This document shows positions 12,152 through 61,519 of a DNA stretch of 64,000 nucleotides, piece after piece. This DNA comes from Myxococcus stipitatus. GTDB taxonomy: Bacteria > Myxococcota > Myxococcia > Myxococcales > Myxococcaceae. Location: NCBI RefSeq assembly GCF_037414475.1, contig NZ_CP147913.1, positions 8,690,501 to 8,754,500 on the forward strand. Reading direction: 5' to 3'. Each line of letters starts with the position of its first letter. Within the stretch, counting starts at the first letter, position 1. The notes beneath the pieces were generated by a model that was given only the letters and a program-made list of their open reading frames with translations, had not been told where the DNA came from and made no database searches. The position numbers were made by a program, and so were the translations under genes.

Positions 12152-13036
12152 ATGCCAGCTCAGCTCACGCTTGGACTTGAGCGGTTGTGTGCGGATGTGG
12201 AGGCTGCCGCCGCGCTTGCGGGGGCCTCCTTTTCCCGGGAGGTGACGCACAACGTCTTGAAAGCCTATCAGCGGTTTTTTACACGCTCCGCGGTGAGCTT
12301 TCGCACCTCCACCCGGAGGCCGGAGAAGCGTGAACTCAACGTGCGCTTCGTGGAGCTGGAGACTCCCGAGGACCCGCACGCGGTGGCGCTCTCCGAGGGC
12401 CTGCTCCATCGCAGCGGCCATCCCATCGACGACCTCATCGAGCAGGTCCAACGCAACGTGCCCATCCTGGGCTACGGCATGGACTTCGGCGTCGCGTACG
12501 GCGTGGAGAAGATCTGGCCCTTCTTCCCCCACCGTCCCCAGCCGCTCGAGGTGCTTCGCTCGCTCCCCTCGCTCCCGCAGAGCGTCCAGGCGCACACGGG
12601 CTTCCTGGTCGAGCACGACCTGACGGACGTGAGCCTCTTCGCGCTCGACTACCGGAGCCGCTCGGTCAACCTCTACTTCATGTGCAGGCCCGGCCACTTC
12701 TCCACCAGGCAGCTCGCGGAGCTCATCGGGGCCCTGGGGTTCGAGAATCCCGGAGAGGAGCTGCTCGAGCACTGCACGCGGGCCGTGCCCATCTACTTCA
12801 CCTTCCGATGGGACCGGCCCCGGGTCGAGCGTGTGTGTTTCGGCATCATCGCGCCCGAGCCCGCGCTCCCCCCGACACACCTCCATCCCGTCATCGAGCG
12901 GTTCGTCTCAGGGGTCCCCTTCGCGACGGAGCGCCGCAACTTCATCTACAGCGTGACGCTGTCGCGGGAGGAGACCTTCATCAAGGTCGAGAACGACTAC
13001 AGCGGGACGATGACCGCGTTGATGCAGGTGTTTTGA
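12152..13036 (+). CDS. ABBA-type aromatic prenyltransferase (NphB/CloQ-like)
   Basis: Soluble aromatic prenyltransferase, 294 residues from the ATG at 12152, preceded by AGAGG; the family is about 300. It should transfer an isoprenyl group from a prenyl diphosphate to an aromatic or other electron-rich acceptor. Alignment from memory with Streptomyces NphB is convincing over the central region: DPHAVALSEGLLHRSGHPIDDL matches the DPYA...GHPVDDLL segment, and KIWPFFPHR, LPSLPQSV, LDYRSRSVNLYF and RVCFGIIAPEPAL follow in order. There is no DDxxD motif, as expected for the Mg-independent or ABBA barrel type. It opens the plus-strand tailoring region and is followed 47 bp later by a radical SAM gene. 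The acceptor is unknown. Confidence 0.88.
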   Translation: MPAQLTLGLERLCADVEAAAALAGASFSREVTHNVLKAYQRFFTRSAVSFRTSTRRPEKRELNVRFVELETPEDPHAVALSEGLLHRSGHPIDDLIEQVQRNVPILGYGMDFGVAYGVEKIWPFFPHRPQPLEVLRSLPSLPQSVQAHTGFLVEHDLTDVSLFALDYRSRSVNLYFMCRPGHFSTRQLAELIGALGFENPGEELLEHCTRAVPIYFTFRWDRPRVERVCFGIIAPEPALPPTHLHPVIERFVSGVPFATERRNFIYSVTLSREETFIKVENDYSGTMTALMQVF

Positions 13037-13083
13037 AGACGCTGGAGTGCCGTCGCCACGGGGCAGTCGAGAGGAGCACCGGT

Positions 13084-14427
13084 ATGGAATGGTCGCCTAA
13101 TATCGAGGCGCTGTACTCGAAGATTGTCGCGCAGGTGCCGATGGTGTTCCGGCCCATCGTCAAGCCCAAGCTCCGCGAGGCGGCCGAGGCCCAGAGCCGG
13201 GGCCGGAACGAGAGCTGGGTCAGCGAGGCGGACCTCGTCGCGGCCCTCTTTGAAATCACCCCGAAGCAGTTCAAGGACGAGTGCGTCAACATGGTCCAGG
13301 GACTGGGCCTGGACGCCGCCCGCTTCGTCGACCTCAACGACATCCGCAATCAATACAAGAAGTCCTGGGCGGAGTTTGGCGAGGCCTTCCATCCCGGCAA
13401 CTACCACATCACGCTCTATGTGACGGACCGCTGCAATGAGCAGTGCAAGCACTGCGCAATCGAGCTGTTCAAGCGGGACGACCTGCCCATCAAAGACTGG
13501 ATTCACATCCAGGACAACCTGGAGGGCGCGCTGCGCAAGCAGGGCCGGCGCGGCGTCTACATCTACTTCGGTGGTGAGCCCACCGTGCGCAGGGACCTCA
13601 AGGAGCTCATCACCCATGCGGGGAAGAACGGCTACTTTCAGGCCCTGGCCACCAACGGGCTGCTCTTCAACGACGACTACGCGAGGTTCTGCGCCGAAAA
13701 TGGCATGAGCCATGTCTTCATCAGCCTGGACAGCGCGGACCCTCAAAAGGCGGCGAAGATTCGCGGCGTCAAACGCGCGGGAGACCTGGCGAAGCGCGCC
13801 ATCGAGAATGCGCAGAAGTACGGGATGTTCGTCATCGTCAACTTCGTGGTGATGAAGCAGAACATCGACGAGATGGAGTCGATGAAGACGCTCATCGAGA
13901 GCTGGGGGGCGGCGCCCTACATGCGCGCGGTCATCAAGACCGGCACGGCGGCCGAGTACTGGAAGGAGGTGGGCCTCAGTCCGGAGGAGTACCGGCGCTT
14001 CTACGACTTCAAGTACCGGCACGCCATCGAGGCGGTGCGCAAGGGACTGGGCTCCACGCTGCCCATCTTCGACATCTGGGACTGGACGCCCTTCATGGAA
14101 CAGCCGCGCACCGACGCGGAGCGGACGGCCATCGAGTGGGGCGTGGGCTGCCAGTCCTGCCGCACCATCTCCGGCGTGGACGTCAACGGCGACCTCTTCC
14201 CTTGCTACTACCCCACGCAACTCAAGCTCGGGAACCTCCTGACCCAGCGCTTCGAAGACATCATGGAGACGCAGGTCTTCCGAGACATCAGAGACCGGAA
14301 GAAGAAGAGCGGGAAGTGCACCTCCTGTGGCAACCGTCAGCTCTGCGGCGGCGGCTGCGGTGTCCACTCGGAATGTGAGACGGGGGACTTCTTCGCCTCC
14401 GTCCCGTATTGCTGGCACAAGGAATAG
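13084..14427 (+). CDS. Radical SAM/SPASM protein with PCP_red-like N-terminus
   Basis: 447-residue radical SAM enzyme. The N-terminal 75 or so residues (VPMVFRPIVKPKLREAAEA... then VSEADLVAALFEITPKQF) resemble the small PCP_red domain of protochlorophyllide reductase subunits. This domain recurs in the methyltransferase gene at 22774. The SAM-cleaving cluster motif is CNEQCKHC, cysteines 117, 121 and 124, followed by YFGGEPTVR. A C-terminal SPASM-like domain holds CQSC, CYY and CTSCGNRQLCGGGC for auxiliary Fe-S clusters. SPASM enzymes modify peptides or small molecules; no precursor peptide gene is evident nearby, so a small-molecule substrate is likely. AGGAG precedes the ATG at 13084. The gene is 15 bp from the following oxidoreductase. 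Confidence 0.87.
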   Translation: MEWSPNIEALYSKIVAQVPMVFRPIVKPKLREAAEAQSRGRNESWVSEADLVAALFEITPKQFKDECVNMVQGLGLDAARFVDLNDIRNQYKKSWAEFGEAFHPGNYHITLYVTDRCNEQCKHCAIELFKRDDLPIKDWIHIQDNLEGALRKQGRRGVYIYFGGEPTVRRDLKELITHAGKNGYFQALATNGLLFNDDYARFCAENGMSHVFISLDSADPQKAAKIRGVKRAGDLAKRAIENAQKYGMFVIVNFVVMKQNIDEMESMKTLIESWGAAPYMRAVIKTGTAAEYWKEVGLSPEEYRRFYDFKYRHAIEAVRKGLGSTLPIFDIWDWTPFMEQPRTDAERTAIEWGVGCQSCRTISGVDVNGDLFPCYYPTQLKLGNLLTQRFEDIMETQVFRDIRDRKKKSGKCTSCGNRQLCGGGCGVHSECETGDFFASVPYCWHKE

Positions 14428-32095: not shown

Positions 32096-32144
32096 GGACA
32101 CACCTGGGACTGGCTCGAGAGGGACCCTGGAGTGCGAGAGCTAT

Positions 32145-43900: not shown

Positions 43901-44462
43901 GCGCCGCGACTACGGGCGCATCGACGGCATCGTGCACGGCGCGACCATCGAGGAGTCCAAGAGCCTCCCGATGAAGTCCTCGGATGCGTTCGTGCGGACG
44001 CTCGCGTCCAAGGCCCACCTGTGGCGCGTGCTGGTGCAGGAGACCTGGAACGACAACCTCCAGTTCTTCATCAACTTCGGCTCGGGCAGTGGCCGCTATG
44101 GCAACAAGGGGCAGACCGACTACTCGCTGGCGAACTACCTCGTCGCGAAGGCGGGTCTGGTCTACGGCGCGCTGCGGCCCGGGGTGCGCAGCGTGACCAT
44201 CGACTGGCCCGTGTGGGTCGGCGCCGGCATCGTGGAGAACAACGCGGACTACCAGGAGCGCCTGCGCGCGATGGGCATCTGCGTCATCCACATCGACGAA
44301 GGGGCGTACTGGTTCGTCGAGGAGCTCCTGCGCGGTGGTTCCGCGGGCGAAGTGGTCATCGCCGACGACAGGACGTTCGAGACCTTGAACCTGCCTCGGC
44401 ATGACAAGGCGGCTCCCAGGGTGGTCAGCCAGGACGCTGGCGGAACCCGCTATGCCATCTGA
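40974..44462 (+). CDS. Tandem ACP-KR subunit with Thr in all ACP sites
   Basis: 1162-residue subunit. A degenerate ACP-like segment (residues 1-70) is followed by four ACP repeats centred on residues 184, 293, 398 and 512. Each reads DLGIDTV or DLGVDTV, with threonine where the phosphopantetheine-bearing serine is expected; PUFA synthase ACPs normally read LGIDSI. The C-terminal half is a ketoreductase of the PfaA type: a pseudo-Rossmann part, VVVVSGGGRGVVYPCAKLLA as NADPH-binding loop, and FGSGSGRYGNKGQTDYSLAN with the catalytic Ser-Tyr-Asn pattern. Repeats 1 and 3 are nearly identical, as are repeat types 2 and 4 in layout. It overlaps the flanking genes and is co-transcribed with the KS-AT gene. 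Confidence 0.88.
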   Translation: MNIATEAAVRQELVTALAELTGYVPELFSPHVRLVDELGLTHEEVQGAVTSVERKLQLPSRRPVEGATVATLAEGLVKPQSPGVPVEMRVEMSLEQVLAFVDDCAARQERPVLETILEETRGALARLDAAAVPAPVAGTSKGPSPVAPDEAMKLLVGALVERTGYPAEMLEADLDLEADLGIDTVKQVEAFAMARVHLNVEKDENFRLRDHNTLNKMVKYLTSRAPAAATPPVAVPQAPVEAAQVRESPMASGASTVEGVLEFLRAAMAAKTGYNLDILQPKLDLEVDLGIDTVTQVEVFAHARTTHGVARDDKFRVRHYNTLQKMAEYLVARAPAQVSNGVKSSPELVVETRARHAAGTGADEAMKLLVGALVERTGYPAEMLEADLDLEADLGIDTVKQVEAFAMARVHLNVEKDENFRLRDHNTLNKMVKYLTGRAPAAASPVAATQAPVEVAQAARATTIPEVAAASTGFSAQDVQAYLVTVLQGKTGYNIELIQPDLDLEVDLGVDTVTQLEAFAMAREKFGVARNEKFRVRNYNTVRKMSEYLVAYAQAPAVEVPSAAKEAPGLEDVRRFIARCEAQGDTASLRRLAGHLEGQLRAPVQAAVAPAQFAGKRYEVHPVALEVQADVRTVEHLKGKTLGITTDAQGAYKTLAKLLEAAEARVVILSSEPGSRQGVSLDWSQPESVGQRLKQLQETQPLDGLILLHTASLAPKLMDQEVAAWASTLNSFSLGLFQSGVAVYDRIQEIPGGGWFVVATAGGGFFGHSNAQGRIPLAGAAGGFVKCLRRERLNARCKVVDLDIQDSALWARQIWNELVCSDRDVEVGYSAGRRYVFRDIETPLATAPVSIKPGSVVVVSGGGRGVVYPCAKLLAKVTGARVIITGRTVPPRGDEEWLKVPEVELPAYRMTFIKRYLAEHAGATPVQARRVFDSDVANRRELHRNLDDCRRQGISLEYKVCDMTEVSAVRSLLAQVRRDYGRIDGIVHGATIEESKSLPMKSSDAFVRTLASKAHLWRVLVQETWNDNLQFFINFGSGSGRYGNKGQTDYSLANYLVAKAGLVYGALRPGVRSVTIDWPVWVGAGIVENNADYQERLRAMGICVIHIDEGAYWFVEELLRGGSAGEVVIADDRTFETLNLPRHDKAAPRVVSQDAGGTRYAI
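41418..42293 (+). repeat. Near-identical 234-bp ACP repeats (units 1 and 3)
   Basis: Unit 41418-41651 and unit 42060-42293 differ at only about ten positions by eye and encode ACP repeats 1 and 3. Between them and after the second unit lie more diverged ACPs 2 and 4, giving an A-B-A-B order. The identity points to duplication of a two-ACP block followed by homogenisation of the A units. Confidence 0.85.
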
Positions 44463-49414: not shown

Positions 49415-50261
49415 CTTCAGCGTGGAGGTGGTGAAGGTCGAGCTGCCGGGCGGGCCGCGCATCACCGTGGCGGTGGTGCCGTTGTCCTCCGTGCGCCGAG
49501 CCTGGCCCATCCAGTCCGATGGCCCCATCTCGCGCGTGTTGACCCCCGCGGAGATCGCCGTGAGCGGGATGCATGGTGTGCTCGAGCGGAGGCTCGCCCA
49601 TCTGGCTGGACGCATCGCCGCGAAGCTCGCGCTGCTCTCGCACCTGCGAGCGCAAGGCTTCTTCTTGGAGGCTCGTGAGCTGGGACTCACCCAGATGATG
49701 GCGGGGCCCCGGGAGGGGCGGCCCGTCGCCCAGCTTCCGGCGGGCGTGCCCGCTTGTGACGTGTCGATATCGCATTCGCACGGCCTGGCGCTGGCGGTCG
49801 TGTCGAGTGGCGGAAGGGTGGGCGTGGACCTGGAGCGGGTCGCGCCTCGGTCCGTCGCGTTTCTGGAGGAGGCCTTCAACGAGGTGGAGCGCGCGTGGCT
49901 CGAGGAGCGGGCCCGGTTCGAAGGGCGGACACTGGATGAGCTGTCGAGCCTGGGATGGTGCCTCAAGGAAGCGCTGGTGAAGTGCTCGGGGGAGGGGCTG
50001 CGCGCGGCGCTTCAGCAGGTGACCTTCGAGGGATGGACGGAGCTGCGGGGCCCGCGGGTGCACCTGGCTCCTCTGACAGAGGGACCGGATGCGTTCGCCC
50101 GGCTCGTCCACCTGAAGGTTCCAGGGGCACGGGAGTCAGACGTCACGGGCCTGCTGATGTTGGGGCAGGGGTACGCGCTGGCGGTCCTTCATGACGCGCG
50201 TGAGGAAGGCGTGTGGATGGGAGAGGCGGGGCGGTTCGCTTTGAGGGAGGCCTCGTCATGA
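49401..50261 (+). CDS. Sfp-type phosphopantetheinyl transferase
   Basis: 286-residue PPTase that transfers the phosphopantetheine arm of CoA to carrier proteins. Motifs are ISHSHGLALAVV, GVDLERVAPRS with Asp143 and Glu145, and WCLKEALVKCSGEGL with Lys189 and Glu190, all at Sfp/Svp-family positions. The N-terminal half is longer than the minimal enzyme. The GTG at 49401 overlaps the preceding KS gene by 14 bp; an ATG at 49350 would add 17 residues lying over the KS gene. Being embedded in the operon, it is the likely activator of the neighbouring ACP repeats, whose modified residue is threonine rather than serine. It overlaps the next gene by ATGA. Confidence 0.92.
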   Translation: MNPPDFSVEVVKVELPGGPRITVAVVPLSSVRRAWPIQSDGPISRVLTPAEIAVSGMHGVLERRLAHLAGRIAAKLALLSHLRAQGFFLEARELGLTQMMAGPREGRPVAQLPAGVPACDVSISHSHGLALAVVSSGGRVGVDLERVAPRSVAFLEEAFNEVERAWLEERARFEGRTLDELSSLGWCLKEALVKCSGEGLRAALQQVTFEGWTELRGPRVHLAPLTEGPDAFARLVHLKVPGARESDVTGLLMLGQGYALAVLHDAREEGVWMGEAGRFALREASS

Positions 50262-51112
50262 TTCGCGGCGGGCCCACGCTGGGGACCGTGGTGGCGTGTG
50301 ATGGGAGCTGGCGCTTCGAGCGCGGCGTCGACATCCAGTCGGACCCCTATCTGCTGGACCACGTCGTCGAGGGCAAGCCGGTGTTTCCCGCCGCGTACCT
50401 GGTGGGCTTGATGACCCAGGCAGCCCACCGTGTGTTGCCAGACCATCAGGTGCTGGGCGTCGATGACGTGAGCTTCGTGCAGGCGGCTCATTTCATGGGC
50501 ACGCGGGCCCTGGAGTTCGCTGTCACGGCGGAGTGCTCGGAGGCACGTCACGTCGCGGTGGGCATCTCCTCGAGCATGGCGCCACCTCGCGCGGGGTTCC
50601 CTCGCATCCACAGAACCCATGCTCGGGGAACCGTGCGGATGGGGGAGCGCGTCGCGCAGACCGCGCGCTTTCAGCGCTTGGATTTCACCCGGGCGGGGGA
50701 CTACGCGGAGCTGTACCGGTTGCCGCGAGAGATTCAGCACGGGCCTTCGTTCCTCGCGGGTCGGAGGTATCGGCAACCCGCGCCGAAGCAACTGCTCGCC
50801 ACGGTGTCTCCTCCAGACCCCTCACCGCGAGGGTGGAGGTTGGAGGCGGATGAGCCGGGGTGGCCCGCGTCGCTGCTCAACGCCATCCTCCATGTGGGCT
50901 TCTCCCTGGGGGTGTTGGCTCGCGAGCGGACGGTCCTCCCGCTGGAGCTGGCCTCCGCGAAGCTGCACGCGATTCCGGACGGTGAGGTCCAGGTGTTCGC
51001 GCGGATGACGGAGGCTCGGGAGGGACGACTGACCTTCCACGTGGTCTCCTGGGACACGGATGGACGGCTGGTGGCGCTCTTCCGCGGCTTCACCGTGCAG
51101 GAGGTTCCATGA
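50258..51112 (+). CDS. Stand-alone DH-like (double hotdog) protein
   Basis: 284-residue dehydratase-domain protein. The first hotdog carries DHVVEGKPVFPAAYLVGL with His35 in the HxxxGxxxxP motif. In the second, the usual aspartate is Asn208 (LLNAILH), so catalysis as a complete DH is doubtful. It may form a composite active site with another DH, in the way PUFA synthases use paired DH domains, or act as an isomerase. The ATG overlaps the PPTase stop by ATGA, and the stop overlaps the next KS gene the same way. One of three DH-type units in the operon, together with those at 44452 and 55035. Confidence 0.82.
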   Translation: MIRGGPTLGTVVACDGSWRFERGVDIQSDPYLLDHVVEGKPVFPAAYLVGLMTQAAHRVLPDHQVLGVDDVSFVQAAHFMGTRALEFAVTAECSEARHVAVGISSSMAPPRAGFPRIHRTHARGTVRMGERVAQTARFQRLDFTRAGDYAELYRLPREIQHGPSFLAGRRYRQPAPKQLLATVSPPDPSPRGWRLEADEPGWPASLLNAILHVGFSLGVLARERTVLPLELASAKLHAIPDGEVQVFARMTEAREGRLTFHVVSWDTDGRLVALFRGFTVQEVP

Positions 51113-54100
51113 GCCCCGCGCGCTTCCGTCCCGTCGCCATCGTGGGCGTGGGGTGCGTGTTCCCCCAGGCGAACAGCGTGGAGGCTTTCTGGTCGAAGCT
51201 CTTGACGGGCGGCACGGCCCTGGGAGTGCTGAACGAGCGGGAGTTCCGCTCGGACGGATACTTCGACTCCTCGCCGACGACACCCGACCGCACGCATTGC
51301 CGTCATGGCGCGCTCGTGGACGAACTGGAGCTGGACGCGCGGAGGTACCGCATCCCGCCCAAGGTCTTGCGAGACATGCATCGGATGCAGCTTGCGTTCA
51401 TCGACGCCACCGCACAGGCGCTCGATGACGCGCGGAGGAGCCTGACGGGAGTGGCACCAGAGCGTGTCGGGTTGGTGCTCGGGTCGACAGGCGGTGGATT
51501 GCGCCCTGGGGCTCGTGTCCACACTCGGCTCGTGGACATGCTGCGCTCCCTGTCCGCGTCGCGGACACTGTCCTCCCGTCATCCGGGAATGGCGGCGGAG
51601 CTGTCGGAGGCGCTCACGGTTCAGCTTCAAGCGGAGCTGTCCGGGACCAGCGAGACCGAGGCCACCGCGTCGTTCAGCAGCATCTGGGCGGGCCGCGCCG
51701 CCAAGCTCTTCGACCTGCGAGGGCCTCACTTCACGGTGGATGCGGGACATGCGTCCTCGCTGGCGGCCATTCAGAGCGCGAGCCAGCAGCTCAACTCCGG
51801 GGACTGCGACGTGGTGTTGGCGTCGGGATGCAGCCAACTGCTGACGCCGCATGACCTGGTGGCGTTCGGCAAACAGGGAGCGTTGGGGACGTCCTCGCTG
51901 GTGCCGTTCGACTCCCGCTCGGGTGGCACGCTCCTGGGGGAAGGTGTCGGCGTGTTCGTCCTGCGCCGGCTGGAAGACGCGGTGGCGTCGGGCGCGAAGG
52001 TCTACGCGGTCATCCGAGGCATCGGCGCGGCGTCCAGCGGTGCGAGCTCCTCGCTCCTGACTCCGGGGCCGAAGGGCCAGGTCCTGGCGATGCGCGAAGC
52101 CTATGCGCGGGCAGGCTATGGACCCCGCGAGGTGCAGTATGTGGAATGCCATGGCTCGGGGATACCCGAGGAGGACGCGACCGAACTCGCGAGCCTGCGT
52201 GAGCTCTGGTCCGAAGCGGAGGATTCATCGCGGGTGCGGCTGGGCGCGGTGAAGGAGCTGACAGGGCACCTCCAGGCGGCCTCGGGAGCAGCGGGGTTGT
52301 TGAAGGTGGCCCTCTCGCTGTTCCACAAGGTGCTCCCGCCCCAACACACCGCGCGGGACTCCGCGGATCTCCGCGCCTCGCCGTTCCACTTCGCGAAGAC
52401 GCCGTCGCCATGGCCGCCGGTCAAGGACGGGGCGCGGCGCGCATCGGTCAACGCCATCGGGTTGGGGGGACTGAACTATCACCTGACGCTCGAGGAGTTC
52501 TCCGCGGACGCGCATGCATGCCTCGCGGCCACCTTGCGCCCACCGCGTCCTCCCGAGCCCATCGCCATCGTGGGGTTGGGAGGTATCTTTCCGGGCGCGA
52601 GTGACGTCGCGAGCCTTTGGGGCAACCTGCTGGAGAAGCGCTGCGCGATTGGCGCGATCCCACCCGAGCGAGCGGAGACCGCCCGCTACCTGGACCCGAC
52701 GCGCAAGAGCAAGGCCCGGCCCTACACCAACCTCGCGGGCTACGTCGTCGATGGGAGCTGGCCACAAGAGCGGGTCCGCGTCTCGGAGGGCGTCGCGGCG
52801 CAGATAGACCGAGGGCAGAGCTGGACGATGCGGGCCGCGTTGCAGGCGCTCGACGATGCCGGGCACTCACCCGGGAGCGTGGACCCACGGCGCGTCGCGG
52901 TCGCGATGGGCTACATGCCGCCGCTCGAGCGTGAGTTCCAGACGCAGGCGCGCGTGTACTACGCGGAGTTCGACGAACGGCTCGAGGCGCAGTTGCGGAA
53001 GCGGGGCATCGACGCCGAGACGGCGCGCCGCATCCGCGACGAGGTGGAGGCGGAGTACAAGCGCGAGCTGCCTCCCATCAACGCCGAGACGCTGCCGGGC
53101 TATCTCGGCAGTCTCGCGGTGGCGCGTGTCGCGCATCACCTGGACTTCCAGGGGCCGGTGATGATGGTGGAGTCTGCGTGTGCCTCCAGCCTGGCGGCCG
53201 TGGACATCGCCGCCAACTTCCTGCACACGCGCGAGAGTGACCTGGTGCTCGCGGGTGGCATGTACGCGACGCTGGGTGTGGACGCCATGACCCAGTGGTG
53301 CTCCTTCGGAGGTTTGTCGCAAAGCGGCTCGTTTCCATTCGATGCGCGAGCCGATGGCTACGTGACGAGCGAAGGCGCGGCCATGCTCGCGCTCAAGCGC
53401 CTCTCGGATGCGGAGGCGGCGGGTGACCGCATCTACGCGGTGATTCGCGCGGTCGCGGGAGCCACCGACCCGAAGAGCGCTTCCATCTGGGCGCCATCAT
53501 CGGAGGGACAGGCGCAGGCGGTGCGCAGGGCCGTGGAGAAGGCCGGAGTCACTCCCGAGGACATCCAGTATCTGGAAGGCCACGGCACGGGGACGCCGGT
53601 GGGGGACCCCGTCGAGGTGGAGACGTATCGCGCGGTGTACGGGCGCGCGGGAGCCGGGAGGAAGGTCTTCCTGGGCTCCATCAAGTCGAACCTGGGCCAC
53701 CTGAACTCCGGAGCAGGAGCCGCGTCACTGCTCAAGGTCGCGCTCGCGCTGCACCATGGACAGGTTCCGCCCAACGCGGGCTTCGCGACGCCCAACCCGG
53801 TCATCCCGTGGCGTGAGCTGCCGTTCCATGTCCCCACGCGGCCCGAGCCATGGGAGCCCGACGAGCACGGTGTCCGCCGCGCGGGCGTCACCTCATTGGG
53901 CTTGGGAGGCACCAGCTTCCACGCGGTCGTGGAGGAGCATGTGCCCAAGGCCACGGTGCTGCGCATCGATGGAGCGGAGCGAGGCGAGCTGCTCTCGAAG
54001 GTGGAGCACCTTCTGAGCGAGCGCGGACATGTGCCCGATAGGAAGTCGGAGCGAGGCGCGGATGACGTGGAGACTCCATGCCGCTTCGCGGTGGCGCTGC

Positions 54101-55038
54101 CCTCCGGGATGACCGCACGACGGATGCTATCGCGTGCTCGGGATGCACTGGCGGGCGCGGCGACGCTCGCGATGCCGGAGCAGGGACTCTATTTCTACGA
54201 CACGCGCGATTCGCGCCGGCTCCATGAGCGGAAGGTGGCCTGGGTCTTCGCGGCGGGAGGGAGCGCCCCCGCGAATGGGCTCCACGCGCTGGCCGAACGG
54301 TATCCCGAGGTGCTCACCACGCTGGATGACGCGGCGTCCGCTTTCGAGGACGTCACGGGGCAGCCGCTGCGAATCGCGTCGGGGCAGGACGGACTTCCTG
54401 GCGACCTGTCGGAGGTCGTGACCGGGGTCGCGTACTACCGGCTGCTGCGCGCTCGCGGGCTTCGGGTCGACATCCTGTTGGGGGAGGGGGCAGGGGAGTA
54501 CAGCGCCCTGGCCGCGAGTGGAATGCTCTCGATGAGGGACACGGTGCGCGCCTTGTTCCTGAGGTCTCGTGCACGAGCGCACCTCGACTCTCGCCCCTCG
54601 CGTCCTGGTGCGAGCGCGCTGCAAGCCTTGAGGGAGGGACTGGTGGAGCTTGCCTGGAGTTCTCCCCAGGTGCCGGTCCTGTCCGCCGTGCATGGGCGCT
54701 ACCACGAGGCCTCACCTCAGGTTGGTTTCCTCGCGCGACACCTCGCCTTGCTGGATGCGCAGCCCTCTCGCTTCCACGAGCACGTGCGCCGCATCTACGA
54801 CGACGGAGTGCGCGTGTTTCTCGAGGCCGGTTCTGGTGAGTCGTTGGCCGCTTGTCTCGAGTCCACGCCGGGCATCGCCGCGCAGGTGATGCATGCCCGG
54901 CATCCCGCTGGGACGGAAGCGGTCGAGCGGTTCCAGCGCCTGTGGGCCTTCAGTGACGTTCACCGTTTGCTGCCATCCGCTGAGCGCGCTCGCGCGCTCC
55001 GGCCTGGAAGCACCTTCCATGAAGAGCAAGTGAGATGA
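51109..55038 (+). CDS. Paralogous synthase subunit: KS(Cys→His)-KS-degenerate AT
   Basis: 1309-residue paralogue of the subunit at 36802, colinear along most of its length. KS domain 1 has His214 at the cysteine position (VDAGHAS) but keeps ECHGSGI and KELTGH. KS domain 2 is intact: Cys691, EGHGTGT, KSNLGH. The third domain is a decayed AT: FPGQG is replaced by FAAGGSAP, the nucleophile serine is Gly1127 (GEGAGEY), and a large part including the catalytic histidine segment is deleted. This subunit therefore cannot load extender units itself and must rely on the AT at 36802 or the trans-acting protein at 60536. Overlaps both neighbours by ATGA. Confidence 0.9.
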   Translation: MSPARFRPVAIVGVGCVFPQANSVEAFWSKLLTGGTALGVLNEREFRSDGYFDSSPTTPDRTHCRHGALVDELELDARRYRIPPKVLRDMHRMQLAFIDATAQALDDARRSLTGVAPERVGLVLGSTGGGLRPGARVHTRLVDMLRSLSASRTLSSRHPGMAAELSEALTVQLQAELSGTSETEATASFSSIWAGRAAKLFDLRGPHFTVDAGHASSLAAIQSASQQLNSGDCDVVLASGCSQLLTPHDLVAFGKQGALGTSSLVPFDSRSGGTLLGEGVGVFVLRRLEDAVASGAKVYAVIRGIGAASSGASSSLLTPGPKGQVLAMREAYARAGYGPREVQYVECHGSGIPEEDATELASLRELWSEAEDSSRVRLGAVKELTGHLQAASGAAGLLKVALSLFHKVLPPQHTARDSADLRASPFHFAKTPSPWPPVKDGARRASVNAIGLGGLNYHLTLEEFSADAHACLAATLRPPRPPEPIAIVGLGGIFPGASDVASLWGNLLEKRCAIGAIPPERAETARYLDPTRKSKARPYTNLAGYVVDGSWPQERVRVSEGVAAQIDRGQSWTMRAALQALDDAGHSPGSVDPRRVAVAMGYMPPLEREFQTQARVYYAEFDERLEAQLRKRGIDAETARRIRDEVEAEYKRELPPINAETLPGYLGSLAVARVAHHLDFQGPVMMVESACASSLAAVDIAANFLHTRESDLVLAGGMYATLGVDAMTQWCSFGGLSQSGSFPFDARADGYVTSEGAAMLALKRLSDAEAAGDRIYAVIRAVAGATDPKSASIWAPSSEGQAQAVRRAVEKAGVTPEDIQYLEGHGTGTPVGDPVEVETYRAVYGRAGAGRKVFLGSIKSNLGHLNSGAGAASLLKVALALHHGQVPPNAGFATPNPVIPWRELPFHVPTRPEPWEPDEHGVRRAGVTSLGLGGTSFHAVVEEHVPKATVLRIDGAERGELLSKVEHLLSERGHVPDRKSERGADDVETPCRFAVALPSGMTARRMLSRARDALAGAATLAMPEQGLYFYDTRDSRRLHERKVAWVFAAGGSAPANGLHALAERYPEVLTTLDDAASAFEDVTGQPLRIASGQDGLPGDLSEVVTGVAYYRLLRARGLRVDILLGEGAGEYSALAASGMLSMRDTVRALFLRSRARAHLDSRPSRPGASALQALREGLVELAWSSPQVPVLSAVHGRYHEASPQVGFLARHLALLDAQPSRFHEHVRRIYDDGVRVFLEAGSGESLAACLESTPGIAAQVMHARHPAGTEAVERFQRLWAFSDVHRLLPSAERARALRPGSTFHEEQVR

Positions 55039-58000
55039 CCTCGGAAACTCAGGCAGCGACCCGGACGTCCACGCCCATTGCCATCATCGGGGCTTCGTGT
55101 CTGGTGGCGGGCGCCGAAACGCCGGAGCAGCTCTGGCGATACATCTCGGAAGGGACGCCGCGGTTCGCGCAGGTCCCGACGTCGCGCTTCCGGTGGGAGA
55201 GCTTCTACAGCAAGGACTCCTCCGACACGGAGAAGGGCGAGGTGTGGCGGGCGTCGTTCTTCAACGACCTGGAGCTGCCGTGGCGTGAGTACAAGGTCGG
55301 GCCGAAGATGCTCGATGAGCTCCACCGCTGTGAGCTGTACACGGTGGAGGCGATTCGGCGGGCCCTCGTGGATGCGCGCCTGTTGGAGCGTCCGTTTCCC
55401 CGTGAGCGCACCGCCGTCATCATGGGCGGGTCGGAGATGGGCTACGACCCGCGCGTCATCCATCCCTTCCTCTGGCACCGGCCCAAGTTGACGGCGGCCG
55501 TGCAGGCGGCGGTTGACGGCTCGGGGCTCCACGAGGACGCCCGGCGCCGCATCATGGAAGACGCCGAGCGCGCGTTCCACGAAGTCAGTCACCGCGAGTT
55601 CACGCGCGGCACCGTCTCCGGGATGAGTCTGTCACTGGGACGGGCCTGTTCCTTGTTCGACCTGAAGGGACCGCACTTCGTGGTGAACTCGGCGTGTTCG
55701 TCCGTGCTGTCCGCGTTGGAGAGCGCCGTCAACGGGCTCACGCTGGGCGATTACGACGTCGCGCTGGTGGGAGGCACGAGCCCCTATTTGACGCCCGCGC
55801 CCTTCGTCACCTTCGAGCGGATGCGGCTGCTGACGCGCGAGGCCCAGCCCCGTCCCTTCGATGCCGACGCGAGTGGGACTCTCCTGGGAGAGGGCACGGG
55901 CTTCTTCGTGCTGCGGCGCTTGGAGGACGCGCTGAAGCAGGGCGACTCCATCCTCGGCGTCATCCGAGGCATCAGCGGCGCGAACGACGGGCGCAGAGGC
56001 GCGTTGATCAGCCCACCCCTGGATGCCCAGGTCCGCGCGGCGCAGCGGGCATACGAGCTCGCGGGGTACTCACCCGAAACGGTCCAGTATCTGGAGTGTC
56101 ACGCCAATGGCGTGGAGTTCCTCGAAGCGTCAGAAATCGCGGCGATGCAGAAGGTGTTCGCGGGTCATTCGCCGCGCAGCCTGACCATCGGCTCCACCAA
56201 GAACATGGTGGGCTATCTGCTCTCGGCGTCGACGCTTCCGGGCATCGTCCGCACGTTGATGGCCATGAAGCACCAGACGTTGCCCGCGCAGGCACACGTG
56301 CGTCAGCCTCGCGAGGAGCTGCGCGCGCAGGGCTCTCCCTTCCAATTGCTCGCGGAGCCCGCGCCGTGGAAGGCACCCGCGGACGGAACGCCTCGTCGCG
56401 CGGGGGTGAACTCGCTGGCGATGGGGGGACAGGCCTATCACCTGGCGTTGGAGGAGTTCGTTCCGGAGTACCACGCGCGGCTGGTCTCGCGGCTCGGTCC
56501 CGCCCCGAAGCGGGAGCCGGTCGCCGTCGTGTCGTACGGAGCCCTGGCGCCGGGCGCGCTGGACAGCGACACGTTCTACGAGAACGTGCTGGGGAAGAAG
56601 AACCACATCATCCGGGTGCCCAAGGAGCGGTTCGACATCGACCGGTACTTCGGCTCCGAGGGGGAGATGGGGAAGATCTACTGCCCGCTTGGAGGATTCA
56701 TCGAGGGCTTCAAGTTCGATGAGAAGGCGTTCCTCATTCCTCCGACGTTGGCGGTGCAACTGGACCGCTCACACCTCTTCGCGCTGACAGCGGCGGAGGA
56801 GGCGCTGCGCAAGACGACCGCGCCCCAGAAGGCACCGTTGCGAACCTCGGTCTTCATGGCGGACATGCCCGGGCGCCTGCGCGAGCGGGAGGTCGAGCTG
56901 CGCATCACCTATACCGAGATGGATGTGCTCTTCCGGCGGGTGCTCCAGGAGCACGGGCTTCCACCCGCCGCGGTCGATGAGCTTGCCCGCGAGGCCGAGG
57001 GGAACTTCAAGGCTCGCATGGCGCCCATGACGCCCTATACCCATGCGGGATATGCCGGCAGCTCGGAGGCGACGCTCATCGCCCATGTGTATGGCTTCAA
57101 GGGGGCCACGGGCATCTTCGAGAGCACCTGCGCGTCCTCGCTCGCGGCCATCGATGCGGGCGTCGAGAACCTCCAACTGGGCCTCGCGGACGTCGTGTTG
57201 GCGGGCGGAGTGTTCTCGGATCTGGAACCCGACCTGTATGCCATCAACTGCACCTTCCGAGGGGTGAGTGGCTCGGGGAGCCGTCCGTTCGACGCGGAGG
57301 CCTCCGGGTTCATCCCGGGCGAAGGAGCGGGTGTCGTGGTGCTCAAGCGCCTGAAGGACGCGGAGCGGGATGGCGACGCGATTCTGGGCATCATCAAGGG
57401 AATCGGGTCCTCCAGTGATGGGAAGGGCAAGTCGCTGCTCGCGCCCAATCCGGTGGGACAGGAGCTGGCGGTTCGTCGCGCGATGGAGCGAGCGGAGGTC
57501 TCCCCCTCGTCCATCCAGTACATCGAATGCCACGGCACGGCGACGCCCGTGGGGGACTTCACGGAGATCTCCACCTACTCGCAGGTCATGCGTGGGCTCG
57601 CTCCGGGCTCGGTGGGTATCGGTTCAGTGAAGTCGATGATTGGCCACCTGCACTCGGCGGCGGGAGTCATCAACCTCATCAAGGTGTTGAAGAGCCTGGA
57701 GCACCGCGTGCTTCCGCCGCAGATCAACTTCGAGCGCCCGAATCCGGATATCGCGTGGGACACCGTTCCCTTCGAGGTCATCACGGAGGCGCGGCCCTGG
57801 AATGCTCCCGCCGATGGAGGTCCACGCAGGGCGAGCCTCAGCGCGTTCGGCATGGGCGGCACCAACTACCACGTGGTGGTGGAGGAGTACGCCGGGCGAC
57901 GCGAGGACGACAACTCCTTCCCCTTGGTGGGAGCGGTGCTGGAGCGCACCGAGGACACGTTGTCCGCCGTGCGTGAGCTGAACCTCGAGACGGACCGCTA

Positions 58001-58874
58001 CCTGAGTGAACACAAGGTCAACGGCGTCGCGGTGCTCCCAGGCACTTTCGGTATGGAGCTGATGGCGGAGGCCGCGCTGCTGCTTCGTCCTGGGTTCGAC
58101 GTGAGGGGGCTCGAGGGCGTGCGCTACCACCAGGCGGCGAAGGTCTGGGAGGGGCGGAGTACGCGCCTCGTTGTCTCGGCGAGCGCGGGCGCGGCGGATA
58201 CTTCGGGGCGGGTAAGCGTGGCCCTCCAGGTGGACATGGAGCTGAGGCCTCGCGCCGACCTGCCAGCGGTTCGCCGCAAGCTCTACACCGGGACCGTGGT
58301 CCTCTCCGCGCGGCGCACGCTTCGAGAAGAGGACACCGTGAAGGTGGAGCCCGCGATGGCGGCGCTCTTCTCGACCGAGGGGCGCCAGGACTTCCGCCCG
58401 CTCTACAACCGTGGCGAGGAGACGCATCTCGGCCCCCGGATGCAGGGTTGCCGATACCTGCGCTTCTTGTCACCCACGCAACAAGCCGCGTGGGTGATGC
58501 AGGAGCGGATGGAGGACCTGTTCTCCTTCACCCCATCTCCGCGCTTCCGGGTGGGGCCGCTCGTGCTGGACGCCATCAACCACGCGGCGGGGATGACCGC
58601 GTACTACTCGCTCGAGTCCCTGGTCCTCCCGGAGGGCGTGGACCGCATGCGACTGCACGAGCCATTGCCCGTGGGTGAGGAGGTCGCGGTCCACTGCACC
58701 TATCTGGGGACCCATGAAGGCATCGCCCGACTTCGCGTCGTGGCCTTCCATCCTCGGACTCGCAAGGTCTTCGTCGAACTCGACGGACTCCGATTCAGCG
58801 TGCTGGGGCACCTGGGGCCGGAGCTCAAGCCCATCATCGACGGCCGCCTGAAAGGAACGCAGGGGCGGGCGTAG
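55035..58874 (+). CDS. Synthase subunit: KS-KS-DH
   Basis: 1279-residue subunit. The first KS (about residues 12-465) keeps its cysteine, Cys221 (VNSACSSV), and the first histidine (ECHANGV), but the second histidine motif reads TKNMVGY, so condensation is probably impaired. The second KS (about 485-955) has Cys699 (ESTCASSL), ECHGTAT and VKSMIGH and looks active. The C-terminal DH (about 975-1270) has HKVNGVAVLPG with His993 and VLDAINH with Asp1179, an intact catalytic pair. It should carry out condensation and dehydration on the shared ACPs. The start overlaps the previous gene by ATGA; the next gene follows after 28 bp. Confidence 0.9.
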   Translation: MTSETQAATRTSTPIAIIGASCLVAGAETPEQLWRYISEGTPRFAQVPTSRFRWESFYSKDSSDTEKGEVWRASFFNDLELPWREYKVGPKMLDELHRCELYTVEAIRRALVDARLLERPFPRERTAVIMGGSEMGYDPRVIHPFLWHRPKLTAAVQAAVDGSGLHEDARRRIMEDAERAFHEVSHREFTRGTVSGMSLSLGRACSLFDLKGPHFVVNSACSSVLSALESAVNGLTLGDYDVALVGGTSPYLTPAPFVTFERMRLLTREAQPRPFDADASGTLLGEGTGFFVLRRLEDALKQGDSILGVIRGISGANDGRRGALISPPLDAQVRAAQRAYELAGYSPETVQYLECHANGVEFLEASEIAAMQKVFAGHSPRSLTIGSTKNMVGYLLSASTLPGIVRTLMAMKHQTLPAQAHVRQPREELRAQGSPFQLLAEPAPWKAPADGTPRRAGVNSLAMGGQAYHLALEEFVPEYHARLVSRLGPAPKREPVAVVSYGALAPGALDSDTFYENVLGKKNHIIRVPKERFDIDRYFGSEGEMGKIYCPLGGFIEGFKFDEKAFLIPPTLAVQLDRSHLFALTAAEEALRKTTAPQKAPLRTSVFMADMPGRLREREVELRITYTEMDVLFRRVLQEHGLPPAAVDELAREAEGNFKARMAPMTPYTHAGYAGSSEATLIAHVYGFKGATGIFESTCASSLAAIDAGVENLQLGLADVVLAGGVFSDLEPDLYAINCTFRGVSGSGSRPFDAEASGFIPGEGAGVVVLKRLKDAERDGDAILGIIKGIGSSSDGKGKSLLAPNPVGQELAVRRAMERAEVSPSSIQYIECHGTATPVGDFTEISTYSQVMRGLAPGSVGIGSVKSMIGHLHSAAGVINLIKVLKSLEHRVLPPQINFERPNPDIAWDTVPFEVITEARPWNAPADGGPRRASLSAFGMGGTNYHVVVEEYAGRREDDNSFPLVGAVLERTEDTLSAVRELNLETDRYLSEHKVNGVAVLPGTFGMELMAEAALLLRPGFDVRGLEGVRYHQAAKVWEGRSTRLVVSASAGAADTSGRVSVALQVDMELRPRADLPAVRRKLYTGTVVLSARRTLREEDTVKVEPAMAALFSTEGRQDFRPLYNRGEETHLGPRMQGCRYLRFLSPTQQAAWVMQERMEDLFSFTPSPRFRVGPLVLDAINHAAGMTAYYSLESLVLPEGVDRMRLHEPLPVGEEVAVHCTYLGTHEGIARLRVVAFHPRTRKVFVELDGLRFSVLGHLGPELKPIIDGRLKGTQGRA

Positions 58875-58902: not shown

Positions 58903-60495
58903 ATGACATCGACACCGTCTTTTCATCCGCCGTTCGTCTGGGGTACGCGCGCGGCGGGCCTGTTGTTGTGTGTGCTCTCCTGGCACCTCGGTGGATGGGC
59001 CTTCCTGGGATGGGCGTGGGCCGCGCTGAGCCTGTTGCGGGTGCCCCGCCGCGGGTTGCTGGTGGAACTGGCCGGGGTCTCCGGCCTGTTGCTGCTGCTG
59101 TCACCTGACTGGATGCCACTGGTGGGCGTGGTGCTTGCGCTGTGCGTGATTCCACTCGCGCCCGAATCCCACGCGCTGAACATGAATGGCGTGGACCGCT
59201 ACTTCTATCTCCAGGACGGTCCTGGTTCGCGGATGAACTCGCATCACTTCGTGGACACGGACGCGCCGATGGAGCGCGAGCCACTGGAGCGCGCCGTGTC
59301 CGCCGTGCTGGGCGAGGTGCCTCTGGCCCGCTCGTTCGTCCGCGAGGCGCCTCTCGGAATCGTGCGCTTCGTGGCGCGGCGCCCTTGGGTCGGGCCCACG
59401 GAGCTGTTGTCGTGGTCGGACCTGCCCGTCGAGGCGGAGGATTCGCGCGTATTGGATGCGCCCATGGACCTGCGGCGCCTGCCGCCGTGGCGAGTGATTC
59501 ACGCGCCTCGACCCGAGGGTGGCTTTCGCCTGTGTCTCACGGTCCATCACAGCGCGGTGGATGGGGAAGGGGGGCTGCTGATGCTCGACCTGCTCGTGCG
59601 CCGCTACAACGAACTGCGCGCGGGGAGACCGCTCTCGCCGCGAGTCCCACTGCACGGTGGCCAGCGCTTGCGAGCGCAGACGCGCCCTCGGGGGCTGGGA
59701 TGGACGCTGCGGATGATGCGCCGGCACTTCTCCCTGGGAGACCAGGACAAGGGCGCTTCGGCCGTGCTCGCGGATGATGTGGCCGCGCGTCCCACGCACA
59801 CGCGGCACCACCTGCTGCGCATCCCGGGGGAGAGCTGGCAGCGCCTCAAGGCCGTCTCCACCGCGCGGGGCGTGAGCCGCAATGACCTGCTCGTGGGGGC
59901 TGTCTTCCGCGCCGCCGATGCACTTCGTCAGGCGCGTGGCGCGCCGGACCTGCGGTTCCGAGCCTTCGTGCCGACGAATCTCCGCTCCGCGCTGGGGATT
60001 CCATCCGGATTGGGCAACTACCTGGGAATGCTTCAAGTCGTGGCGCGTCCCGACGAGATTCGCTCACCGGGCCTGGAGCGGCTCTTGTCGGAGTCCATCC
60101 GGAGCATGCGGGTCCTCGAGGAGTCCGTGGGCTTCATGGTCAACATGGGGCTGGTGACGCTGATGCCCCCCGGGATGTTCCGGGCGGCGTTGAAGCGCAA
60201 TGACGCGGACCCCTCCGCGTTCAACTACTCGCTGCTGGTGAGCACCATCCGCCAGCCCGAGGAGCTGGCCCTGCCGGAAGGTATCGGCACCGAGCGTGTC
60301 CTGGTCCGCGGCTCCCTCACGGGAAGCCCCTGCATCGGCGTCGTCATCATCCATTCAGGGGGAGCGGTGCACGGCGTCATCGAATACCTCTCGCCGACGA
60401 TGCGCGACGCGACGGTGCACGAGTTCGGTGAACGGTGGCTGGCCGAGGTCGAACGCCTGGCTTCGGCGGATCAATCACTGCCCGCCGCGAGCTGA
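58903..60495 (+). CDS. Membrane-anchored HHxxxDG acyltransferase
   Basis: 530-residue protein. Residues 10-90 contain two or three hydrophobic segments (AAGLLLCVLSWHLGGWAF, LAGVSGLLLLLSPDWM, VGVVLALCVIPLA) that should anchor it in the inner membrane. The rest is a chloramphenicol-acetyltransferase-like/condensation fold with HHSAVDG at residues 215-221, as in wax-ester synthase and PapA-type acyltransferases, followed by DLRFRAFVPTNLRS and FNYSLLVSTI. It probably transfers the finished acyl chain from ACP or CoA to a hydroxyl or amine at the membrane. It follows the KS-KS-DH gene by 28 bp. No thioesterase is present, so this is a candidate release enzyme. Confidence 0.87.
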   Translation: MTSTPSFHPPFVWGTRAAGLLLCVLSWHLGGWAFLGWAWAALSLLRVPRRGLLVELAGVSGLLLLLSPDWMPLVGVVLALCVIPLAPESHALNMNGVDRYFYLQDGPGSRMNSHHFVDTDAPMEREPLERAVSAVLGEVPLARSFVREAPLGIVRFVARRPWVGPTELLSWSDLPVEAEDSRVLDAPMDLRRLPPWRVIHAPRPEGGFRLCLTVHHSAVDGEGGLLMLDLLVRRYNELRAGRPLSPRVPLHGGQRLRAQTRPRGLGWTLRMMRRHFSLGDQDKGASAVLADDVAARPTHTRHHLLRIPGESWQRLKAVSTARGVSRNDLLVGAVFRAADALRQARGAPDLRFRAFVPTNLRSALGIPSGLGNYLGMLQVVARPDEIRSPGLERLLSESIRSMRVLEESVGFMVNMGLVTLMPPGMFRAALKRNDADPSAFNYSLLVSTIRQPEELALPEGIGTERVLVRGSLTGSPCIGVVIIHSGGAVHGVIEYLSPTMRDATVHEFGERWLAEVERLASADQSLPAAS

Positions 60496-60535
60496 CGCCG
60501 GAACACCGCGCGGCTTCCCTTGAAGAACGCCTTGG

Positions 60536-61519
60536 ATGGACATCATGAACGACACATCGCGGGGAGAGGTGGCGGAGCGTTGGGCGTGGCTCTTTCCCGG
60601 GCAGGGGTCCCAGAAGGTCGGGATGGGCCGGAGGATGCTCGAGCGCTCCGTCGAGGCACGGCGCGTCTTCGAGGAAGCCTCGGAGGCCATCGGGGTCGAC
60701 CTCGCGCGGCTCTGCCTGGAGGGACCTCTCGAGAAACTGACGGCGACCGAGAACGCGCAGCCCGCCATCGTGACGGTGAGCGTGGCGTGCCTCGCGGAGT
60801 TGCGAGAGCTCGGGCTTGAACCTCCCATCGTGGCGGGGCACAGCGTGGGGGAGTTCTCCGCCCTCGTGGCCGCGGGATGCCTGCCGCTGGCGGAGGCGGT
60901 CCGTGCGGTGCGCAAGCGAGGCCAGCTCATGGCGAGCGTGACGGCGCCAGGCCGCATGTTGGCCGTCATGGGTCTGGAGCAGTCGCGGGTGGAGGCGCTG
61001 TGCCAGGAGGCCGCGCGTGAAGGGGTGGTCGTCGTGGCCATCCACAACAGTCCCCAGCAGTTCGTGCTCTCCGGAGCCGTGCGAGCCCTGGAGTGCTTCA
61101 AGGACCTGGCGCTGGCCGCGGGCGCGAAGGAATGCGTGATGCTGGAGGTGAGCCATGCCTTCCACTCACCCTTGATGGCCCAGATTCACGAGGACTGGCG
61201 CGCGGAGGTCGCGCGACTCCGGCTGCGCATGCCCCGGTGCCCCGTGATCCTCAACACCACGGCGAAGGAGTTGCGGACACTCGTCTGCATCCGGCAATCC
61301 TTGGGGGATCAAATCACCGCTCCTGTCCTGTGGATGCAGTGCGTGAGGAATCTCGCCGGACAGGGCGTGACGCGGGTGCTCGAAGTCGGCGACAGCAAGG
61401 TGGTGTCGTCGCTCGCGCGCCGCACCGTGCCATCTCTCCAGGCATTGACGTTCCTGGATCCTTCGATCCTCAACCAGATTGCACCTGTCAAGGGCTGGCG
61501 GACCCTGGGTGAATCTTGA
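60536..61519 (+). CDS. Trans-acting malonyl transferase (FabD-like)
   Basis: 327-residue stand-alone acyltransferase with all catalytic elements: FPGQGSQ, Ser103 in GHSVGEFSAL, a GHSV motif typical of malonyl specificity, and His207 in VSHAFHSPL. It resembles FabD and PfaB-type AT proteins and could supply malonyl groups to the ACP repeats, especially for the subunit whose own AT is inactivated. Two in-frame ATGs (60536 and 60545) are possible; neither has a strong ribosome site. It is the last gene before a 173-bp gap with a hairpin, so it probably ends the operon. Confidence 0.88.
   Translation: MDIMNDTSRGEVAERWAWLFPGQGSQKVGMGRRMLERSVEARRVFEEASEAIGVDLARLCLEGPLEKLTATENAQPAIVTVSVACLAELRELGLEPPIVAGHSVGEFSALVAAGCLPLAEAVRAVRKRGQLMASVTAPGRMLAVMGLEQSRVEALCQEAAREGVVVVAIHNSPQQFVLSGAVRALECFKDLALAAGAKECVMLEVSHAFHSPLMAQIHEDWRAEVARLRLRMPRCPVILNTTAKELRTLVCIRQSLGDQITAPVLWMQCVRNLAGQGVTRVLEVGDSKVVSSLARRTVPSLQALTFLDPSILNQIAPVKGWRTLGES

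Follow-up and report, generated by a model that had tools for sequence, protein, structure and literature searches.

Does a lipid synthase that stands next to a set of genes for the modification of aromatic compounds belong to the same pathway as its neighbour? This question is raised by a region of the Myxococcus stipitatus chromosome (genome G000, 10.31 Mb in a single contig), which was analysed in a window of 64,000 nucleotides (G000:C1:8690501-8754500; all positions below are those of the window). Most of the genes lie on the plus strand and form two blocks, a tailoring block at 12152-35544, which encodes an aromatic prenyltransferase, radical S-adenosylmethionine (SAM) enzymes and oxidative enzymes, and a synthase block at 36718-61519, which resembles polyunsaturated fatty acid (PUFA) synthases. 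A sequence-only reading had regarded both as a single system whose product would combine an acyl chain with a prenylated aromatic core. This reading is correct at the level of the enzymes and over-joined at the level of the pathway: the region probably holds two adjacent biosynthetic units with separate products. The synthase block is most likely a secondary-lipid (PUFA-synthase-like) iterative megasynthase that has been inherited in the Myxococcaceae as a unit, and the tailoring block most likely represents a gene cluster for aromatic tailoring that belongs to a single Myxococcus clade.

Distribution of the two blocks

The blocks were followed in 195 Myxococcota genomes with one marker protein each, the window genome being included in all counts. 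The synthase marker, a protein in which a C45-type domain is fused to a dehydratase (DH) (44401-46548), was detected in 13 genomes, all belonging to one family (Myxococcaceae) and to three genera, and the tailoring marker, a radical SAM/SPASM protein searched as 13033-14427 with a threshold of E <= 1e-25, occurs at full length in four genomes, all of them among these 13. Seven other genomes contain matches of 28-31% to the radical SAM region of the SPASM enzyme only, and the prenyltransferase was found in 4 of the 80 genomes searched for it. The tailoring marker is absent from nine of the 13 synthase genomes. As judged from the respective neighbourhoods, two genomes of the same genus (G003 and G005) possess all ten synthase genes in order, including the gene for a PapA-type acyltransferase (two of the ten genes in G003 being shown by one of two comparisons), and no tailoring gene of the window within 60 kb around each synthase. 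The synthases of four genomes from two other genera (G041, G145, G146 and G135) have neighbours quite different from those in the window, and no counterpart of the third double-ketosynthase gene or of the PapA-type gene was seen there, some small genes (e.g., the DH gene in G145 and G146) not having been picked up in these genomes. Because the synthase occurs in relatives without the tailoring genes, it is an independent unit. These distributions speak for two units, as does the minus-strand lipoprotein gene in the 1.2 kb between the blocks. Separate occurrence of the blocks in related genomes, which the sequence-only reading had itself named as an outcome that would refute it, was observed in one direction only, namely as a synthase without tailoring genes. 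The gene to the right of the G003 synthase is present in G016 and G010 and missing in G000 and G014, and the one to its left was found only at 49% identity, in G014 (four genomes checked in both cases). In G041, the synthase is followed by a fusion of a thiamine pyrophosphate enzyme, an AMP ligase and a carrier domain (L039:12024-18029), a homologue of which occurs in G135.

Several observations weigh against separate units. The tailoring marker never occurs without the synthase among the 195 genomes, and in all four genomes that carry both blocks (the window genome and its near relatives G008, G013 and G014) order and spacing are unchanged, with 28.6-28.7 kb from the prenyltransferase gene to that of the carrier-protein-ketoreductase protein. 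The absence of the tailoring block from the nine other synthase genomes was judged for all of them by one marker protein (E <= 1e-25) and for six, not including G134, G141 and G147, also by the neighbourhoods. A SPASM scan of all bacteria with rather poor patterns yielded 133 pattern matches and no relative, and the block was otherwise sought in Myxococcota and plasmids only. A promoter and terminator scan of 33800-37000 found neither, so no transcript boundary is marked between the blocks. Finally, no enzyme building an aromatic core is evident in the tailoring block, so the synthase could supply the core.

A less likely reading is that a tailoring block acquired more recently took over the older lipid synthase, so that the clade of M. 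stipitatus would now possess a single hybrid pathway. By analogy, a polyene may then be attached to, or be part of, a prenylated and oxidised aromatic product, and the two HemN-type radical SAM enzymes of the tailoring block may cyclopropanate or methylate the chain. Apart from the common order and spacing, this is favoured by the position of the synthase, which adjoins a type VI secretion system (T6SS) in this clade while the two are on different contigs in G003 and G005, by the absence of anything from the window in the 20 kb preceding the T6SS of the latter genomes, and by two tested genes left of the tailoring block that are confined to the same four genomes. A HemN-type pair beside a synthase without an enoyl reductase would also suit the modification of a polyene, as suggested by Jaw5 (PMC6050322). 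However, nine of 13 synthases do without the tailoring marker, the blocks are under different constraint (see below) and are separated by a gene on the opposite strand, and co-occurrence confined to four near relatives amounts to one evolutionary data point. Being neighbours is in itself a weak argument, since cluster-dense segments are marked in myxobacterial chromosomes (PMC10435759). The fuller version of this proposal, in which one pathway of the M. stipitatus clade would lead to an undescribed metabolite class (a polyene made by an enoyl-reductase-free synthase with four pairs of ketosynthase and chain-length factor (CLF), cyclopropanated or methylated by the HemN-type enzymes and linked with an aromatic unit that is prenylated and possibly halogenated), appears rather unlikely to us.

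Selection on the two blocks

The ratios of nonsynonymous to synonymous substitution rates of genes of both blocks, obtained by the NG86 method against G008, G013 and G014, lie between 0.06 and 0.36 (rough values at the G+C content of these genomes), which indicates that the gene set is not there by chance. Compared with G013, the 18 genes that run from the SPASM enzyme to the KstD-like flavoprotein have a median identity of 94.5% and the ten synthase genes one of 87%; the tailoring value falls to 92% (21 genes) once the prenyltransferase (89%), exported protein (82%) and ATP-grasp half of a split dikinase (81%) are included. Both blocks are maintained, yet they are not evolving alike. No internal stops are present in any of the 16 reading frames re-checked. 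In G008 and G014, the SPASM homologue had been suspected to be broken by a stop, but this stop corresponds to residue 7 of the longer reading, located before the ATG (residue 18), and the gene is intact.

The synthase block

The enzymes of both blocks were identified by Pfam and NCBIfam profile scans of the window proteins (Table 1), which bear out the four double-ketosynthase proteins, the protein with acyl carrier protein (ACP) and ketoreductase (KR) domains, the DHs (on three DH-bearing proteins), the phosphopantetheinyl transferase and the acyltransferase (AT) named in the sequence-only reading; its membrane acyltransferase is borne out weakly, by a PapA-type match below the cut-off and an N terminus that looks hydrophobic. 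Eight of the 51 ketosynthase (KS) matches of the genome fall into the window, and in all four double-KS proteins an inactive or degenerate KS comes first and an active one second. The AT of the third of these proteins is probably inactive, since its serine motif reads GEGAG. The description as PUFA-type holds as a resemblance, though the PfaA model of NCBIfam scores 744.7 bits, below its cut-off of 1010.1, and the PfaD enoyl reductase was not found in the window genome, where TIGR02814 reaches 25.1 bits at best (cut-off 449.25). The PfaD search took in 10 of the 13 synthase genomes and gave scores over the cut-off in G145 and G135, away from this synthase.

The ATs would load malonyl units onto the four tandem ACPs, and each active KS, with the inactive KS as a CLF-like partner, would extend the chain. 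KR and DHs would act in every round. As no PfaD was found, the double bonds should remain, resulting in a polyene or (poly)hydroxylated acyl chain, of which a polyene is the best inference to be drawn from the predicted domains. The C45-type and PapA-type acyltransferases may finally pass the chain to an acceptor.

The tailoring block

The same scans substantiate the prenyltransferase, the three radical SAM enzymes (one with a SPASM and two with a HemN_C domain), the CrtI-, HpaB-, halogenase- and KstD-like proteins and the split phosphotransferase of the sequence-only reading. Of the four P450s it had placed at 12152-61519, three are encoded there and the fourth lies outside, at 8131-9339. Genes that had not been listed before are those for the dual-specificity phosphatase, the Amidohydro_2 enzyme, the methyltransferase adjacent to the HemN-type genes, the 159-aa hydrophobic protein, the protein resembling high-potential iron-sulfur proteins (HiPIP) and the cupin, as well as the C45-type domain on the DH and the minus-strand lipoprotein between the blocks, which shows 90-91% identity in three relatives. 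The closest solved chains of the prenyltransferase are 4ee6, which we take to be a phenazine-type enzyme, 5ynt and AmbP3, followed by others including 1zb6, AmbP1 and CloQ. The halogenase-type enzyme carries both GWxWxIP and FxxPxxSxG, the motifs of flavin-dependent halogenases, and its best solved matches are mostly halogenases (all of the top three). Residues 217-551 of the C-terminal dikinase half align with 537-880 in chains of 5fbs, 5hv1 and 5hv2, and the two halves are encoded 14.5 kb apart.

In the proposed scheme, a phenolic or indolic precursor would be hydroxylated by the HpaB-type enzyme and the P450s and prenylated by the ABBA enzyme; the aromatic unit may also be halogenated, and possibly phosphorylated by the split dikinase. 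By analogy to known HemN-type enzymes, the HemN-type pair with the adjacent methyltransferase may add a one-carbon unit. Gene content, intact motifs, distribution and selection are established by the data; all substrates and products and the order of the reactions are conjectural here, as they are for the synthase.

The dikinase also offers a different view, namely that of a PigC/RedH-like ligase condensing two separately made halves as in prodigiosin assembly. The C-terminal half does score 142 bits with the RedH and 140.5 bits with the PigC model, and the PigJ model gives 331, 264 and 331 bits for the three double-KS proteins to which it was applied, but all these scores are far under the cut-offs (1350, 1300 and 900 for RedH, PigC and PigJ, respectively), the models for phosphoenolpyruvate (PEP) synthase (158 bits) and rifampin phosphotransferase (141.5 bits) score alike, and the window shows no evident genes for pyrrole formation. 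We regard this as extremely improbable.

Other candidates were set aside. Two further prenyltransferase candidates proved to be an out-of-frame open reading frame (ORF) (33921-34709) and a protein matching cupins (27179-28093). A ribosomal peptide was dismissed, as no precursor-like candidate was present among the small ORFs conserved in relatives and no leader-binding domain in the Pfam scans. PCP_red-like N termini, surmised on inspection of the sequences, found no support: the methyltransferase scored 11.6 bits (E 0.3), and the SPASM enzyme gave no match.

Table 1. Genes of the tailoring block, the intervening gene and the synthase block (aa, amino acids; Ntn, N-terminal nucleophile; letters in brackets after KS, residues of the catalytic triad).
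Product	Position	Strand	Evidence
ABBA aromatic prenyltransferase, 294 aa	12152..13036	+	PF11468 209 bits (cut-off 22), full-length match
Radical SAM/SPASM enzyme, 447 aa	13084..14427	+	PF04055, PF13186
CrtO/CrtI-type FAD oxidoreductase, 525 aa	14443..16020	+	NF045689 271.6 bits, under cut-off 1000
Hydrophobic, probably membrane protein, 159 aa	16040..16519	+	Translation; no Pfam match; 88-90% identity in 3 relatives
Cytochrome P450 no. 1, 411 aa	16551..17786	+	PF00067 92 bits; heme motif FGAGPHRCVG
Dual-specificity-type phosphatase, 201 aa	17894..18499	+	PF00782 40.5 bits
Split PEP-synthase-like dikinase, C-terminal half (acceptor-side region and phospho-His domain), 552 aa	18499..20157	+	PF00391 88 bits
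HpaB-type flavin phenol hydroxylase, 476 aa	20173..21603	+	PF11794 244 bits, PF03241 157 bits
Amidohydrolase-superfamily enzyme (Amidohydro_2), 389 aa	21600..22769	+	PF04909 114 bits
SAM methyltransferase with N-terminal extension of ~120 aa, 310 aa	22774..23706	+	PF13649 58.6 bits; DLACGTG motif
HemN-type radical SAM enzyme no. 1, 464 aa	23696..25090	+	PF04055, PF06969; CPYCPF motif
Protein between HemN-type genes, 142 aa	25087..25515	+	No Pfam family reaches its cut-off
HemN-type radical SAM enzyme no. 2, 457 aa	25512..26885	+	PF04055, PF06969; CPFCPF motif
HiPIP-like small iron-sulfur protein, 67 aa	26909..27112	+	PF01355 19.4 bits, slightly under cut-off 22
Cupin protein, 304 aa	27179..28093	+	PF07883 43.8 bits
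Cytochrome P450 no. 2, 451 aa	28109..29464	+	PF00067 220.8 bits; heme motif
Flavin-dependent halogenase-type enzyme, 416 aa	29461..30711	+	PF04820 120 bits
Cytochrome P450 no. 3, 459 aa as longest ORF	30722..32101	-	PF00067 179.7 bits; heme motif
3-Ketosteroid delta-1-dehydrogenase (KstD)-like flavoprotein, 570 aa	32212..33924	+	PRK12844 587.6 bits, under cut-off 789
Probably exported protein, 204 aa	34048..34662	+	Signal-like N terminus by eye; no Pfam match over cut-off
Split dikinase, ATP-grasp (N-terminal) half, 280 aa	34702..35544	+	PF01326 197 bits
Lipoprotein between the blocks	35577..36239	-	Lipobox-like LLSAC and signal peptide by eye; no Pfam match
Inactive KS (Y-H-H), active KS (C-H-H), AT	36718..40977	+	PF00109 x2, PF00698; triad alignment
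Four tandem ACPs, KR	40974..44462	+	PF00550 four stretches, PF08659; four LG(I/V)DTV sites
C45-type Ntn-hydrolase/acyltransferase domain fused to DH	44401..46548	+	NF040521 154 bits (cut-off 85); PF14765, PF21089
Inactive KS (A-G-D), active KS (C-H-H)	46541..49414	+	PF00109 x2; triad alignment
Phosphopantetheinyl transferase	49350..50261	+	PF01648 46 bits
Dehydratase	50213..51112	+	PF21089, PF14765
Inactive KS (H-H-H), active KS (C-H-H), degenerate AT (GEGAG)	51109..55038	+	PF00109 x2; triad alignment
Degenerate KS (C-H-Y), active KS (C-H-H), DH	55035..58874	+	PF00109 x2, PF21089; triad alignment
PapA/condensation-type acyltransferase	58903..60495	+	PF16911 20.2 bits, under cut-off 30; hydrophobic N terminus by eye
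Stand-alone acyltransferase (GHSVG)	60536..61519	+	PF00698 156 bits

The HemN-type radical SAM pair

Both enzymes of this pair, which are tandem paralogues sharing 42% identity in the alignment, contain a HemN-type domain with HemN_C and an intact CxxxCxxC motif, the features by which class C radical SAM methyl(ene)transferases are recognised; their best solved relatives are HemN and NocN. In place of the HemW motifs CxYCDF and HN..YW, they show CPYCPF or CPFCPF and HH..NW. A HemN scan of all bacteria returned at least 584 relatives, and both HemW motifs are present in all 14 homologues chosen for a tree from the best 80 of these. In this small, unrooted tree of 20 sequences, the pair groups with HemN-type proteins of biosynthetic-looking clusters from G010 and a Clostridium, apart from HemW (local support 0.97). 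A function as HemW chaperones was set aside on the motifs and the tree, although both enzymes exceed the HemW cut-off of NCBIfam (227.3 and 253.1 bits, cut-off 205.4). None of the best 80 relatives is accompanied by the tailoring block, and for two of them a single weak match to a further tailoring protein was recorded in each case (24 and 21% identity). Scans of plasmids gave no SPASM match at 1e-30 and three matches of HemW type.

A methyltransferase directly adjoins the HemN-type genes in the G010 and Clostridium clusters, as in the window, and no BLAST similarity was found between these methyltransferases and that of the window. The loci L207-L210 (G016 and G010) and L113 (Clostridium sp. 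KNHs205) represent a separate cluster type, in which HemN-type radical SAM enzymes stand beside a methyltransferase; the methyltransferases of G010 and L113 are 42% identical, and L113 additionally contains three CN-hydrolases and a BtrH-type protein, while the Myxococcus copies contain HpaB. The HpaB homologues of G016 and G010 show 37% identity to that of the window, and two homologues in tandem (31 and 30%) occur in G131, from another genus. Within 35 kb around HpaB in G016 and G010, a HemN-type gene and otherwise no tailoring gene of the window was found at E <= 1e-8, and within 20 kb in G131 only the two HpaB genes. The gene for the 142-aa protein overlaps both HemN-type genes, and its product shows 91-94% identity in three relatives; it was suspected to be a lipid carrier, but its structure model is of too low quality for a fold comparison (predicted local distance difference test score of 55).

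Edges and flanking genes

The right edge of the synthase block is sharp: from 61607 onwards the sequence is again similar to that of G003, G005 and G016, in which the cluster does not border the T6SS. The T6SS genes TssJ and TssK adjoin the cluster at 61607-64000, and TssK occurs in 26 of the 27 genomes of the genus (E <= 1e-100). A left edge was not found when the window and a further 60 kb to the left were compared to the 20 kb upstream of the T6SS in G003, G005 and G016, which gave no match. The segment 1-10127 encodes an acyl-CoA dehydrogenase, two acyl-CoA ligases, two SCP2-type thiolases with an OB-fold partner, a P450 and a double SnoaL-like protein, a set resembling those for side-chain degradation. 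It is followed at 10717-12063 by a minus-strand gene for a radical SAM protein with a helix-hairpin-helix domain, divergent from the prenyltransferase gene. The SnoaL gene occurs in 4 of the 27 genomes of the genus and the radical SAM gene in the same four, so the clade-specific region extends beyond 12152-61519.

These flanking genes raise the question whether the tailoring block might be catabolic or steroid-related and form one degradation island with them. The dehydrogenase, ligase, thiolase and OB-fold genes, their clade-specific companions and the 587.6 bits of the KstD-like protein for a steroid family point in this direction, but that score stays below the family cut-off of 789, and we know of no role in steroid breakdown for the prenyltransferase, the halogenase-type enzyme, the HemN-type pair or the SPASM enzyme. 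A degradation island is therefore quite improbable, and a biosynthetic cluster next to an independent synthase remains the preferred reading.

Significance

Judging by its enzymes, the tailoring block is probably a cluster of about 20 genes for a prenylated aromatic that has not been characterised so far, and the synthase block adds a layout absent from the secondary-lipid types considered below. Automated cluster finders would probably flag it, and M. stipitatus DSM 14675 has reportedly been used in gene-cluster work already. As far as titles and abstract openings tell, the literature searched on M. stipitatus clusters, myxobacterial secondary-lipid and PUFA synthases, hglE-KS, meroterpenoids and ABBA enzymes does not describe the cluster, in agreement with the sequence-only reading, which had recognised no described pathway. 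Since the synthase stands alone in relatives and together with the tailoring genes in one clade, a comparison of their chemistry bears on whether neighbouring clusters fuse into new pathways.

Comparison with known systems

The synthase block shares with the PUFA and secondary-lipid synthases (pfaABCDE) tandem ACPs with a KR, an AT, DHs and a stand-alone AT, as well as its own phosphopantetheinyl transferase, KS/CLF-like pairs and the arrangement of the genes in one run. It differs from the pfa systems in having four KS pairs, in the distribution of the PfaA-like function over two genes, in the lack of a detectable PfaD in the genome and in the additional C45-DH fusion and PapA-type genes. The order within the pairs, with the inactive before the active KS, is the reverse of that in PfaC, where the KS precedes the CLF (PMC3098273). 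None of the secondary-lipid types described in the first part of the Results of the same paper, in a scheme that runs from A to T, has this layout of repeated inactive-active KS pairs with no enoyl reductase found. The hybrid clusters for zeamine, fabclavine and chitinimine (PMC13291983) likewise combine a PUFA-like synthase with other biosynthetic machinery, but carry polyketide synthase and nonribosomal peptide synthetase modules, unlike the window; the main text of that paper contains no word starting with prenyl or Myxococc- and no mention of 'radical SAM'.

For the HemN-type pair, the C10P/C10Q cyclopropanase of CC-1065 and CoeI of coelulatin offer parallels, as HemN-type enzymes of secondary-metabolite clusters with phenolic substrates. 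C10P has a methyltransferase partner, and the arrangement in the window recalls the C10P/C10Q pair (PMC6050322), where HemN-type action on a polyketide is proposed for Jaw5; CoeI acts on an anthraquinone (PMC9714029). Unlike these systems, which are likened here by gene arrangement and not by sequence comparison, the window contains two HemN-type paralogues with a 142-aa protein between them and an N-terminally extended methyltransferase.

The split dikinase resembles the two-subunit dikinases phenylphosphate synthase and phenylphosphoamidate synthase in its separate genes for the dikinase parts, the separate subunits of phenylphosphate synthase being related to such dikinases (PMC7500099). 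This likeness is one of organization rather than of compared sequences, and in contrast to phenylphosphate synthase the halves are 14.5 kb apart and no carboxylase gene was noticed. With regard to the ABBA enzymes, no myxobacterial member appears in the titles and abstract openings of the literature searched, and the window enzyme should be placed with the Orf2/NphB-type prenyltransferases, AmbP and CloQ, as it matches the family over its full length and has its best solved chains among them.

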